Assembly: GCA_021776685.1 (NCBI GenBank)
Contig: JAJFFJ010000043.1
Coordinates: 62,001-126,000, forward strand
Direction of reading: 5' to 3'
Source of the DNA: Alphaproteobacteria bacterium
GTDB taxonomy: Bacteria; Pseudomonadota; Alphaproteobacteria; Bin65
DNA: 64,000 nt
The notes below the pieces were generated by a model. It did not search any database. It was not told where the DNA came from and saw nothing but the letters and a program-made list of their open reading frames with translations. Positions within the stretch are counted from its first letter, which is position 1; the number at the start of each line of letters is the position of its first letter. Position numbers and translations under genes: made by a program. Shown in pieces: positions 56,273 through 63,060 of this stretch.

Positions 56273-56342
56273 ACTCTAGGGCGATGGCACCGCGGCAGCC
56301 TTGACATCGATCAAGCGCGACCAGACAACCGGTCGATAGGGT
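56273..56342. promoter_or_regulatory. Bidirectional FNR/Dnr-box promoter (nar operon and CMD-nnrS)
   Basis: The box TTGACATCGATCAA spans 56301-56314. Leftward, a TAGAGT -10 hexamer (56273-56278 complement) leads to the narK gene; rightward, TAGGGT (56337-56342) leads to the CMD gene. In both directions the hexamer begins 29.5 bp from the box centre, so the box sits at -41.5 if the start is 7 bases downstream, the class II activator layout. Regulator binding is inferred from the consensus. Confidence 0.85.
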
Positions 56343-56381
56343 GGCGGCGATTGATCGCTGCACATGTGCGAGGAGACAAAA

Positions 56382-56705
56382 ATGACAGAACAGCTACCGT
56401 CAGCGGCGGCCGGAATCGCGGAAGACTACCCGGAAATCTGGGCGGCCTATCAACAGCTGGGCGCGGCCTGTGCGAATGCCGGGGGCATTGACGAAAACAC
56501 TCGCAGACTGGTCAAGCTGGCGCTTGCCATCGGCGCCGGATCCGAAGGCGCCACCCATTCCCACAGCCGCCGCGCCCTTGAGGCGGGACTTTCCCCGGAG
56601 GACCTCAAGCAGGTGGCGTTGATGGCGATCCCCACACTTGGGTTCCCGCGATCGATCGCAGCGCTTACATGGATTGAGGACGTCACAGGCAAGTCCGGCG
56701 CCTGA
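56382..56705 (+). CDS. Carboxymuconolactone decarboxylase/AhpD-fold family protein
   Basis: A 107-residue helical protein: LVKLALAIGAGSEGATHSHSRRALEAGLSPEDLKQVALMAIPTLG matches the CMD core. The AhpD CxxC is absent (THSHSR in its place), so peroxidase activity by the AhpD mechanism is unlikely. GGAGA before the ATG at 56382 decides the start over an in-frame ATG 18 bases upstream. It is the first gene after the shared FNR-type box and precedes nnrS by 31 bases, which suggests a nitrosative or anaerobic role. Confidence 0.9.
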   Translation: MTEQLPSAAAGIAEDYPEIWAAYQQLGAACANAGGIDENTRRLVKLALAIGAGSEGATHSHSRRALEAGLSPEDLKQVALMAIPTLGFPRSIAALTWIEDVTGKSGA

Positions 56706-56736: not shown

Positions 56737-57906
56737 ATGAAACACCCATTCTGGTCGGAAGGGCTCCGCCCTTTCTTTCTGTTAGGCGCTGCTTTTGCCG
56801 CTCTATCCATCCCTCTGTGGGTGTTCCTTGTGAGCGGTACAATTGAATTGCCAATGCGGGGTGGCCCGCTGGTCTGGCATATTCACGAGGCGATATTCGG
56901 GTTTGTTGTGGCGGCGATTGCCGGGTTCCTTACCACCGCTGTCCCACAATGGACGGGCCGGCCGCCTCTCAGGGGACCAGCATTGATGCTCCTCGTGCTT
57001 CTGTGGCTGACTGGGCGCGCGGCGTGGCTGGTGTCCGAGGTGCTTCCGGTCTGGCTGGTAGCGGCCTTGGATGTGGCGTTTTTACCGGCATTGTGCCTGG
57101 CGCTGGCGGCAGGCATCGTCCAGCAGCGGCAATGGCGCAATCTGCCTGTTCTCGTGATGGTGCTGACGCTTGCCGCGGGGAACCTCCTGATTCATCTTTC
57201 GTTGGCGGCGGTGATGGTGGACGGCCAGACGCTCGGTTTTCACCTATCCCTGTTCGCGGTGATCCTGTTGGTGACCATCATTGGCGGCAGAATTGTACCG
57301 ACATTCACCCGCAACGCGCTGCAGAAGGCGGACCGTTCCGGAATCCTCTTCAACAATCCGACCCTTAACGTCGCCTGCAATGCAGCCGTTGCTATGGCGG
57401 GATTGCTGATCACATTTGCGCCGGGGTATGAAGTCTCTGGTGTGGCTGCCCTTGTTGCGGCGGCGCTGTCATTGGTCCGGTTGGCGGGTTGGCGGGGCTG
57501 GTCTGCCATGGCCATGCCCCTCGTATGGGTTTTGCATCTGGGCTATCTGTGGTTGCCCGTGGGGTTCGCTCTCTATGGCGCTGCAATACTTGGAATAGGC
57601 GTGCCCGCGGGTGCTGCGATCCATGCGCTTTCGGTAGGCGCCGCGGCGACGATGATTTTGGCCGTAACCACACGTGCGAGCCTTGGCCATACTGGCCGGG
57701 CACTGATCGCGCCTTGGCCTGCTGTCGTCGCCTATCTGTTGCTGACCGTCGCGGCAATCGCCCGTGTGGCGGCGGCCATTGAGCCCGATGCATTCACGCC
57801 GCTGCTGCATGCATCCGCTGCGTGCTGGTGCCTGGCATTTCTTATTTTCTTTACGGTCTACCTGCCGATCCTGAGTGGCCGACCCCAGCCGGCGTCTAGT
57901 CTGTAG
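56737..57906 (+). CDS. nnrS: NnrS family haem-copper membrane protein
   Basis: A 389-residue polytopic protein with about twelve hydrophobic segments. FWSEGLRPFFLLGAAFAAL, WHIHEAIFGFVVAAIAGFLTTAVPQWTG and GGRIVPTFTRNALQ carry the conserved histidines and charged residues of NnrS, which in other denitrifiers lowers the toxicity of nitric oxide. In this organism it sits next to a Dnr-type regulator, overlapping that convergent gene by 11 bases. Expression from the FNR-type box at 56301 fits a role during denitrification. Confidence 0.93.
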   Translation: MKHPFWSEGLRPFFLLGAAFAALSIPLWVFLVSGTIELPMRGGPLVWHIHEAIFGFVVAAIAGFLTTAVPQWTGRPPLRGPALMLLVLLWLTGRAAWLVSEVLPVWLVAALDVAFLPALCLALAAGIVQQRQWRNLPVLVMVLTLAAGNLLIHLSLAAVMVDGQTLGFHLSLFAVILLVTIIGGRIVPTFTRNALQKADRSGILFNNPTLNVACNAAVAMAGLLITFAPGYEVSGVAALVAAALSLVRLAGWRGWSAMAMPLVWVLHLGYLWLPVGFALYGAAILGIGVPAGAAIHALSVGAAATMILAVTTRASLGHTGRALIAPWPAVVAYLLLTVAAIARVAAAIEPDAFTPLLHASAACWCLAFLIFFTVYLPILSGRPQPASSL

Positions 57907-58588
57907 CCGTGAACCGCTGCAGTGCCGGGAGGTCCTGAATCCGAGCTTCGACGCCGTCCACATTCACTCCATGTTTCTTGAGCGACGCCAACGCGCGGGA
58001 AAAGGTCTCTGGCTTCATTCCCAGACGGTTGGCGATGAGCTGTTTGTCGTAGGGTAGTTGAACGACCACCATGGGGCTCCCGGCTTCAGGCAGTGGGCTG
58101 AACTTGAGCAAAAAATCAGCGACACGCTGGGCTGCGGACTGACTTTTGATCTTCTCGATTCTGCCAACAAAACCTTTCAGCCGACTAGCCATCGACGCCA
58201 GCATTCCGAGCGCCAGATCCGGGTCCTGGCGGAGACGTTGGCTGAAGGCATCGGTTGGCACTTCCAGGAGGCGGCCATCCTCAATCATCTCAGCCGTTAC
58301 CGGATAGCCATCGGTCATATGCATGGCGCCTTCGGCAAAAGACTCCCCGGGGCCAAATATTTCCATGACCACCTCCGTACCGTCCGGGCGCAGCCGAAAC
58401 AGCTTTACCCAGCCTGACAGCACAACGAAAAAGTGGGTCACCGGCTCGCCCTGCTCGAACACCATCCTGCGCTTGCCGTGCACCCGGACAAGTGCGTCGC
58501 CCAGGAGGTCCGACAAGTGGTCAAGCGGCATCCCGTTGAAGAGCGGTAGCTGCCTGAGGCGATCGATTTCATATCCACTTATCGTCAT
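57896..58588 (-). CDS. Dnr/NnrR-type CRP/FNR family transcriptional regulator
   Basis: A 230-residue regulator with an N-terminal cyclic-nucleotide-like beta-barrel (FFVVLSGWVKLFRLRPDGTEVVMEIFGPGESFAEGAMHM), a dimer helix and a C-terminal winged helix with LIANRLGMKPETFSRALASLKKHGV. The Glu...Ser-Arg residues of the recognition helix (PETFSRAL) are those that read TTGAT-N4-ATCAA boxes. The protein contains no cysteine at all, so it cannot hold the FNR FeS cluster and should be a Dnr/NnrR-type nitric-oxide sensor (haem-based in Dnr). It is the natural candidate to bind the three boxes found in this window. Confidence 0.9.
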   Translation of the reverse strand: MTISGYEIDRLRQLPLFNGMPLDHLSDLLGDALVRVHGKRRMVFEQGEPVTHFFVVLSGWVKLFRLRPDGTEVVMEIFGPGESFAEGAMHMTDGYPVTAEMIEDGRLLEVPTDAFSQRLRQDPDLALGMLASMASRLKGFVGRIEKIKSQSAAQRVADFLLKFSPLPEAGSPMVVVQLPYDKQLIANRLGMKPETFSRALASLKKHGVNVDGVEARIQDLPALQRFTATD

Positions 58589-58685: not shown

Positions 58686-59192
58686 TCAGGATAGGTTGTC
58701 TTTGTACCAGACAAGTAGATGTCGCTGGGCAGCCAGATATCGGCGTATTTCTGCTAACGGATCTGCGGCTTCCGACAACGCATCATCACTTTCCTTGGTC
58801 AATTGCGCAGTGGCCTGTGCGGCTGCCTTGGCCAGTCGACGAAGTCTGCTGTGATCTTCGCGGAGAAGATCCAGCCCAACAGCCGAACGCGACTCGTTTG
58901 CCTCGAGCAGAGTGGCATACCGCCGTTCAGCGCGGCGCATTAGAAGTGGCAGATCTTTTTCCAGGAACCGGAGGAGGCCGCCGCTATCTGCCACCATGTC
59001 CCCGATAGCCGCAGTCTCAACCAAGGCTTCCAGTGAATTACAAGTGAGTTGAAGGCGGAGGAGGTCTTCGCCGCCAAAGGGGCCCGTGTTCGGTTTTCGG
59101 TCACCGCGATCGCCGCGCTGGGATGGCTCTAACTGAGCTGGATCGGGATCCTCGTCTGCCGCCATATCTTTTACCGCTTGGAACACCACCAC
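58686..59192 (-). CDS. Hemerythrin-like helical protein, ligands incomplete
   Basis: A 168-residue helical protein that resembles a degenerate hemerythrin HHE domain: GLLRFLEKDLPLLMRRAERRYATLLEAN, LLREDHSRLRRLAKAAAQATAQL and a final IRRYLAAQRHLLVWYKDNL. Only some of the expected His/Glu diiron ligands remain (REDHSRL, QRHLL), so iron binding is doubtful. A GTG at 59192 follows GGAGG by 8 bases and is preferred over ATG 59165. It is the leftward partner of the FNR-type box at 59249, with a TAGAAT -10 five of six to consensus, so anaerobic expression is strongly suggested. Confidence 0.6.
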   Translation of the reverse strand: MVVFQAVKDMAADEDPDPAQLEPSQRGDRGDRKPNTGPFGGEDLLRLQLTCNSLEALVETAAIGDMVADSGGLLRFLEKDLPLLMRRAERRYATLLEANESRSAVGLDLLREDHSRLRRLAKAAAQATAQLTKESDDALSEAADPLAEIRRYLAAQRHLLVWYKDNLS

Positions 59193-59220: not shown

Positions 59221-59290
59221 ATTCTATCTATATTGGCGGTACAATTCCTTGACTGGTGTCAAGGAAACGGGGGCTTCAAGCGATTAGGGT
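59221..59290. promoter_or_regulatory. Bidirectional FNR/Dnr-box promoter (hemerythrin-like gene and sRNA candidate)
   Basis: The box TTGACTGGTGTCAA (59249-59262) lies within a perfect 7-base-arm palindrome CCTTGAC-TGGT-GTCAAGG (59247-59264). Leftward the -10 is TAGAAT (59221-59226 complement); rightward it is TAGGGT (59285-59290). Both hexamers begin 29.5 bp from the box centre, predicting starts near 59214 (minus) and 59297 (plus). Confidence 0.85.
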
Positions 59291-59296
59291 GGTGAT

Positions 59297-59391
59297 TGTC
59301 GCTGGTCGGCGAGAGCCGCAGCGATGGACATTTGTCCCTCAGCGTAAAACTCCTCCAGGAGCAGACCCCATGGGTCGGCTCCTTTTTTTTT
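59297..59391 (+). ncRNA. Candidate FNR/Dnr-controlled small RNA
   Basis: Predicted 95-nt transcript from the rightward start set by the box at 59249, with no protein gene before its terminator. Segments in order: a strong hairpin at 59299-59324 (TCGCTG/CAGCGA outer stem, CGGC/GCCG inner stem, GAGA tetraloop), a small hairpin 59326-59337 (GGAC-ATTT-GTCC), a mostly unpaired stretch with CTCCTCC at 59350-59356 able to pair with Shine-Dalgarno sequences, and the terminator hairpin with nine T residues. The layout is that of a trans-acting bacterial sRNA. Existence of the transcript is inferred from sequence only. Confidence 0.6.
59358..59391 (+). terminator. Rho-independent terminator, plus strand
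   Basis: Arms GGAGCAGACCC (59358-59368) and GGGTCGGCTCC (59372-59382) pair over 11 positions with one mismatch around a CAT loop, followed by nine T residues (59383-59391). No plus-strand protein gene ends before it, so it terminates a non-coding transcript. Confidence 0.8.
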
Positions 59392-59405
59392 AGGAGGATG
59401 TGGCC

Positions 59406-59807
59406 TCAGGCGTCAGGTAGAACGGCAGTTGCCTCAAGCTCGATTAGCCCAGGCGAATCCAGCAGGTCAGCGACGAAGATCATACTCATGGCCGGAAAAT
59501 GCCGCCCCATATGCTTCTGCCATATGGGGCCAAGATCTCTACGGGCGGCCATGTATTTAGGCTTGTCGCAACAGAACGCCGTCATTCGGCAAATATCCTC
59601 GGGCTTGCCGCCCGCGGTAGCGAGTATCTCCAGCACATTCTGCAGCGCCTGGTCGAATTGCGGGGCGAGTTCCTCACTATGAAAAGTCTGGCTGGCATCC
59701 CAGCCCACCTGTCCCGCGATAAATAAAATCTGTCCGGGTGGTGCAAGAACGCCGTTTGCATACCCGATCGGGTCGGCCCAGCCGGGCGGGTGAATTATCT
59801 GTGGCAT
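59406..59807 (-). CDS. RidA family (YjgF/YER057c/UK114) protein
   Basis: A 133-residue chorismate-mutase-like trimer protein: GYANGVLAPPGQILFIAGQVGWDA, AGGKPEDICRMTAFCCD and AMSMIFVADLLDSPGLIELEATAVLP. Classic RidA hydrolyses reactive enamine/imine intermediates, but the usual RNPQR-type arginine near residue 105 is not evident here, so it may be one of the Rid subfamilies with other chemistry. The start MPQIIHPPGW at 59807 lies 5 bases after the rubrerythrin-like gene in a leftward operon with korAB. Confidence 0.9.
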   Translation of the reverse strand: MPQIIHPPGWADPIGYANGVLAPPGQILFIAGQVGWDASQTFHSEELAPQFDQALQNVLEILATAGGKPEDICRMTAFCCDKPKYMAARRDLGPIWQKHMGRHFPAMSMIFVADLLDSPGLIELEATAVLPDA

Positions 59808-59812
59808 GGCGG

Positions 59813-60334
59813 CTACCCTTGGTCCACTGGTTGGTCCCAATCCTCAGGCGGCGGGCCTTCGGCGGGACATTTTTCCAACTCACGTTCGAGCATTTCAACG
59901 TGCTCTTGCTCTTCTGCTGCGAAAGTTTTCGCCATTTCGCGAATCTCGTCGAACTCGGTGTCACCGGCCAGCCAGGTGAAAAATTCGCAAGCGGCCTTTT
60001 CCGCCCGCAACGACAGTTCAAGTGCCTTACGGGGCGTCATCCTGTAGTCGATCGCCGTGTGTGCGATGGTTTCCGGCGCTTCGTTGCCAACCCAGGACAT
60101 GTCCCACGGATCGAGAGGAGGCTGCGGCGTTGCCGGTCGTAGCCCTTCTACGTGGGCCGCGTGTTTGCCCTCATACTCCGCCAACAGGCGGAAGAGCGCG
60201 GCCACCTCCAGATTGTTATGCACCTCCATCTGGTCCGCGAGGTCCAGATAACGCGCTTCTGCTTCCGCCTCGATTACATAGGCGTGGTAGAGCAAACCGC
60301 CGATGGTGCTGACGGATTTATTCTTGCTAGTCAT
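59813..60334 (-). CDS. Rubrerythrin/ferritin-like diiron protein
   Basis: A 173-residue four-helix-bundle protein with EAEAEARYLDLADQMEVHNNLEVAALFRLLAEYEGKHAAH in the first half and EKAACEFFTWLAGDT ... AAEEQEHVEML in the second, giving the paired ExxH/Glu diiron ligands of rubrerythrin. The C-terminal rubredoxin CxxC domain of true rubrerythrin is lacking. It probably removes peroxide or oxygen. Its ATG overlaps the korB stop (ATGA), so it is made together with the oxygen-sensitive KorAB enzyme and may protect it (inference). Confidence 0.85.
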   Translation of the reverse strand: MTSKNKSVSTIGGLLYHAYVIEAEAEARYLDLADQMEVHNNLEVAALFRLLAEYEGKHAAHVEGLRPATPQPPLDPWDMSWVGNEAPETIAHTAIDYRMTPRKALELSLRAEKAACEFFTWLAGDTEFDEIREMAKTFAAEEQEHVEMLERELEKCPAEGPPPEDWDQPVDQG

Positions 60335-62990: not shown

Positions 62991-63060
62991 ACATTAGGCC
63001 GGTTGGCGGGCAACGCGCTTGATGACGGTCAAGGAGCCTGCCCATGGCGTCACCTACTCT
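62991..63060. promoter_or_regulatory. Bidirectional FNR/Dnr-box promoter (korAB operon and had)
   Basis: The box TTGATGACGGTCAA spans 63019-63032. Leftward, TAATGT (62991-62996 complement) serves korA; rightward, TACTCT (63055-63060) serves had. Both lie 29.5 bp from the box centre. Predicted starts are near 62984 and 63067. Confidence 0.82.

Follow-up and report, generated by a model that had tools for sequence, protein, structure and literature searches.

A candidate FNR/Dnr-driven small RNA gene with an anti-Shine-Dalgarno stretch beside nitrate-respiration genes of an alphaproteobacterium

A 64,000-nucleotide stretch of DNA from Alphaproteobacteria bacterium (assembly GCA_021776685.1, contig JAJFFJ010000043.1, positions 62,001 to 126,000; the whole stretch is called the window here) contains, next to genes of nitrate respiration and the NO response, a segment with the anatomy of a small RNA gene, whose promoter and terminator elements can be read directly from the DNA. 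The geometry of the promoter and the rarity of the terminator together make it quite probable that an FNR/Dnr-driven, short, non-coding transcript starts at 59297, and we infer strongly that 59297-59391 is transcribed. Whether the segment is also a stand-alone FNR/Dnr-driven small RNA with anti-Shine-Dalgarno action in trans is, in our estimate, evenly balanced. An earlier note on this DNA had put forward an anaerobically induced RNA of that type; its FNR/Dnr-driven, terminator-ended non-coding unit is upheld by geometry and rarity, whereas the anti-Shine-Dalgarno mechanism that it proposed stays putative. The features of the region are as follows.

58686..59192, minus strand: divergent gene of 168 aa, FNR-driven as judged by the position of the box; weakly hemerythrin-like (Pfam E 0.011, sub-threshold)
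59221..59226 (as complement), minus strand: leftward -10 element, TAGAAT, at a gap of 22 nt to the box at 59249
59249..59262: FNR/Dnr-type box TTGACTGGTGTCAA, a perfect palindrome common to the two divergent promoters
59285..59290, plus strand: rightward -10 element, TAGGGT, likewise at a gap of 22 nt to that box
59297..59391, plus strand: candidate small RNA of ~95 nt, from promoter geometry, fold and terminator
59298..59325, plus strand: 5' hairpin with GAGA tetraloop (predicted fold)
59326..59337, plus strand: small, weak second hairpin GGACAUUUGUCC (predicted fold)
59338..59356, plus strand: single-stranded linker of 19 nt (predicted fold) with CUCCUCC, which can pair with Shine-Dalgarno sequences, at its end (59350-59356)
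59357..59391, plus strand: intrinsic terminator with a 6+5 bp stem (59357-59383) and nine T at 59383-59391
59351..59398, minus strand: outer inverted repeat TCCTCC/GGAGGA flanking the terminator (59351-59356 with 59393-59398), which may terminate the ridA operon in the leftward direction, with a GUUUU end
59406..59840, minus strand: convergent ridA-type gene, last gene of a POR-rubrerythrin-ridA operon with an FNR-box promoter

The symmetric FNR-type box with a protein gene to its left, from which the earlier note had set out, is present with a -10 and the 168-aa gene. The implied starts, 59297 rightward and 59214 leftward, each lie 41.5 nt from the centre of the box (both positions are inferred and unmapped). 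The source genome holds 27 boxes of the form TTGAYNNNNRTCAA, against one occurrence of a control pattern, and a TANNNT hexamer stands at a gap of 22 nt on 9 of the 54 box sides, compared with an average of about 0.4 at other gaps; with an intergenic background of 0.7%, the binomial P for this excess is ~3e-10. The full promoter pattern has 33 occurrences across 11 genomes of the family, against one of its control. The same spacing had been claimed for five protein-gene directions, and it is found in all of them (leftward from 59249, and both ways from the boxes at 56301 and 63019). A gap of 22 nt is thus a genome- and family-wide signature of FNR promoters, and it counts in favour of 59297-59391 as a small RNA gene. 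When 31 such promoters were inspected, the rightward one at 59249 alone led to a terminator, all others running into an open frame with no T-run.

Boxes with a gap-22 -10 on both sides make up four of the five in the source genome that have such a -10 at all: 56301-56314, 59249-59262 and 63019-63032 in the window, and one on another contig (G000:C72:6356). Judged by these patterns, bidirectional promoters built on a single box seem usual in this genome. The 56301 box, which precedes the nnrS region, has the hexamer TAGGGT as well; directly under that box and ahead of nnrS lies a 113-aa gene (56364-56705, plus strand), whose product we take, by eye, to be of the carboxymuconolactone decarboxylase/AhpD type.

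No terminator on the 300-kb contig surpasses the rightward one (-18.1 kcal, eight T immediately behind the stem), and the 1.46 kb upstream of it contain no plus-strand gene end. Runs of eight or more T number 52 in the 4.5-Mb genome, of which about 16 are preceded by a strong hairpin. At the whole-genome rate, a given promoter would have one of these terminators no more than 100 nt away with a probability of ~2e-4, or ~2e-3 with intergenic enrichment. The whole 95-mer has a fold z of -3.8, its 44-nt 5' part surpasses 99.4% of genomic 44-mers in folding, and the predicted structure leaves CUCCUCC unpaired. The GAGA-capped hairpin, the CUCCUCC stretch and the nine-T terminator described previously are all in place, and the second small hairpin is there too, albeit only as a weak one. 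The earlier statement that no open gene crosses these 95 bases also holds: apart from short peptides, likewise judged unlikely, the unit is overlapped by ORFs of 128 aa and 45 aa, one lacking a Shine-Dalgarno sequence and the other starting upstream of the RNA start; as both also cross the terminator, they were rejected. Elsewhere, very strong T8 terminators with no obvious gene end directly upstream were seen at four loci (L184 1001, L144 1501, L160 1501 and, on the minus strand, L174 994); none gave an Rfam or tRNA match, and these loci are possible further small RNA genes.

A scan for an FNR promoter followed by a T-run, with no sequence requirement in between, was positive in 4 of 385 genomes of the class, namely the source genome and three others. 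One of the three independent matches is a hemA-like gene, in which the T-run is coding. Another is a tandem SorX locus, with the second copy right under an FNR-type box, and the last is an orphan hairpin-linker-terminator unit of ~79-85 nt with a fold z of -3.4 (genome G308), for which Rfam offered no convincing match and which is a candidate FNR-driven small RNA by its layout. Since two of the three are a known small RNA and an orphan that looks like one, the scan supports the architecture as that of a small RNA gene. The SorX copies (L200, G032:C3 near 381,880-382,011; RF02784, E 5e-16 and 1e-14) follow an OmpR-family-like gene, and the second lies at class II distance from the box TTGACCTCGATCAA; its FNR control is putative. 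The G308 unit (L202, G308:C1 near 1,932,529-1,932,654) sits between an Rrf2-type-like gene and a convergent LysR-type-like gene.

Other explanations of the segment have to be weighed against a small RNA gene. Since the box and its -10 sequences are symmetrical, polymerase would start rightwards too, and the segment could be a by-product of a promoter that serves to drive the 168-aa gene, yielding a short rightward transcript that the terminator stops and that has no function in trans. The prevalence of two-sided boxes described above speaks for this, as does the commonness of bidirectional promoters in bacteria (PMC12825309, PMC10268837). We nevertheless regard it as rather unlikely, because the remaining bidirectional boxes of this genome lead to open frames on both sides, so strong a terminator is rare in the genome, and the 5' part is unusually well folded among genomic 44-mers. 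A related objection concerns the hairpin, which might chiefly terminate the POR-rubrerythrin-ridA operon leftward, the nine T of the plus strand being its A-tract, with no small RNA at all. Right after the ridA stop, the minus strand has a fold of -27.1 kcal (z -3.7) over 59338-59400, and the extension of the stem by TCCTCC/GGAGGA, an inverted repeat that the earlier note had missed, with GUUUU behind it on that strand, means that CTCCTCC and its partner GGAGGA are explicable as part of a two-way terminator. However, the leftward U-tract consists of four U after a G, whereas the rightward one has eight U directly after the stem, and it would be left unexplained why a -10 stands precisely at the FNR distance (background ~0.7%), so we consider this account improbable. 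Given so poor a leftward tail, a two-way terminator rivals the interpretation of the motif more than it does the transcript itself.

The T-run and the ridA stop are only ~14 nt apart, and this convergent arrangement also suits a cis-acting antisense RNA that would pair with any 3' UTR produced by read-through from the ridA operon, tuning the operon's 3' end or its decay, both RNAs being FNR-induced; the operon (POR standing for a pyruvate-oxidoreductase-type enzyme) does have an FNR box of its own, at 63019. The transcript stops short of the ridA coding region, however, and any overlap would require leftward read-through, which makes an antisense role very unlikely. Least credible, to the point of near-dismissal, is a gene for a short peptide such as MDICPSA (59324-59347) or MGRLLFF (59370-59393). 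An AGGAG in the left arm of the terminator does stand 8 nt upstream of the ATG at 59370, a spacing that is probably coincidental, but the MGRLLFF frame lies inside the terminator, and MDICPSA begins in a stem and has no Shine-Dalgarno sequence.

Searches for relatives of the candidate RNA were uniformly negative. Its genus comprises one genome and its order 11, so these negative results do not refute conservation. The 95-mer had no relative elsewhere in the source genome or, by BLAST, in 60 further genomes, and no match in a plasmid collection. No matching RNA was found at loci around related rubrerythrins (relatives at no more than 46% identity), and no second case of an FNR promoter with CTCCTCC appeared among 385 class genomes, in which the 168-aa protein likewise had no homologue. 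The covariance search proposed earlier, run with a single-sequence model of 59297-59391, recovered no relative in 240 class genomes, a set that includes no close relative; its matches in relatives were treated as generic terminators because the best was an rpmJ-type terminator. Rfam scans matched no family, the hits at E 0.5-10 being below threshold, in line with the earlier remark that no named small RNA fits. Many genomes gave BLAST matches to query positions 57-92, which were taken as chance; the loci concerned are presumably codons of the ABC-transporter Walker A motif (LVGESGSGK).

Complementarity to Shine-Dalgarno sequences had been the basis for expecting mRNA targets, and CUCCUCC is indeed complementary to them and unpaired, but pairing with the neighbouring genes was no better than CUCCUCC alone provides. 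Of the 263 gene starts on the contig, 5 have eight contiguous complementary bases, including those of the flanking 168-aa and rubrerythrin genes, and a strong GGAGG/AGGAG site is present in only ~18% of contig genes (gene starts throughout are those of a simple ORF caller). Against shuffled flanks around a constant CUCCUCC, the duplex energies of these two were not unusual (168-aa gene, p 0.20; rubrerythrin, p 0.15). Target prediction of the kind suggested earlier, applied to 262 gene starts, both ignoring and including accessibility, found the neighbours not specific beyond the core: the accessibility-corrected ranking did not favour them, with rubrerythrin at rank 22 and the 168-aa gene at rank 56, the latter computed with untranscribed upstream DNA (its opening cost is 8.9 kcal from the inferred start).

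A review of small RNAs in nitrate respiration covers FnrS, NarS, PaiI, DenR, PcrZ and RoxS (PMC8139620), with none of which the candidate could be identified. FnrS represses, under anaerobic conditions, mRNAs that are unneeded without oxygen (PMC8139620), and PaiI of Pseudomonas aeruginosa is anaerobically induced and tied to nitrate respiration (PMC5703892, PMC8139620); DenR and PcrZ are other anaerobic or denitrification small RNAs alongside PaiI. In Escherichia coli MG1655, the FNR site of fnrS, TTGAGCGAAGTCAA, precedes the annotated start by 42.5 nt, and the gene ends in a U8 terminator. The candidate shares with it an FNR site ~42 nt ahead of the start, the form of a stand-alone short RNA and the U8 terminator, but it has no match to the fnrS family (Rfam, E up to 10), and the FnrS sequence lacks CUCCUCC. 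PaiI, compared by description, differs in depending on NarXL. Among Alphaproteobacteria, the Cuckoo, or CcsR and SmelA075-type, RNAs carry anti-Shine-Dalgarno CCUCCUCCC motifs in hairpin loops (PMC3927594), and a DUF1127 gene is often their neighbour, the promoter in Rhodobacter being of the RpoH type (PMC10253847). An anti-Shine-Dalgarno motif is common to both, but those RNAs have several CCUCCUCCC loops, whereas the candidate has a single CUCCUCC, in a linker and under an FNR box; no DUF1127 gene lies beside it, its neighbours encoding the 168-aa, RidA-type, rubrerythrin and Crp/Fnr proteins. SorX of Rhodobacter (RF02784) is similar in its CCUCCC stretch before the terminator and in having one copy, in G032, under an FNR-type box, but the candidate does not match the SorX covariance model. 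Overall, the candidate appears to resemble anaerobic small RNAs of the FnrS or PaiI type in layout while falling outside every sequence family tested.

The account that we favour is that 59297-59391 would be a stand-alone small RNA gene. Its activator, bound at -41.5, could be an FNR that senses oxygen (the source genome encodes one with a CX2CX5C cysteine motif, CAACAIRDLSVC, beside its own FNR box) or the Crp/Fnr-family protein encoded in the window at 57896-58588, and the rightward transcript would end 95 nt later at the strong intrinsic terminator. The RNA would then act in trans, probably with Hfq, which is encoded in the source genome; its CUCCUCC linker would pair with Shine-Dalgarno regions, and this pairing would lower the translation of mRNAs unwanted without oxygen. 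Base-pairing regulation and the identity of the targets are matters that we infer only. The most specific version, a new FNR/Dnr-activated anti-Shine-Dalgarno small RNA of an isolated alphaproteobacterial-type lineage that brakes the 168-aa gene and the rubrerythrin operon, strikes us as improbable.

To our knowledge, few FNR-dependent small RNAs are known outside the gamma- and betaproteobacteria. The candidate is short and sharply bounded, with an exact promoter and terminator, which makes it easy to test. If the specific version were true, the small RNA would share one box with a divergent gene, possibly for an iron protein, and the arrangement would form an incoherent loop, in which a single activator drives both mRNAs and their translational brake.
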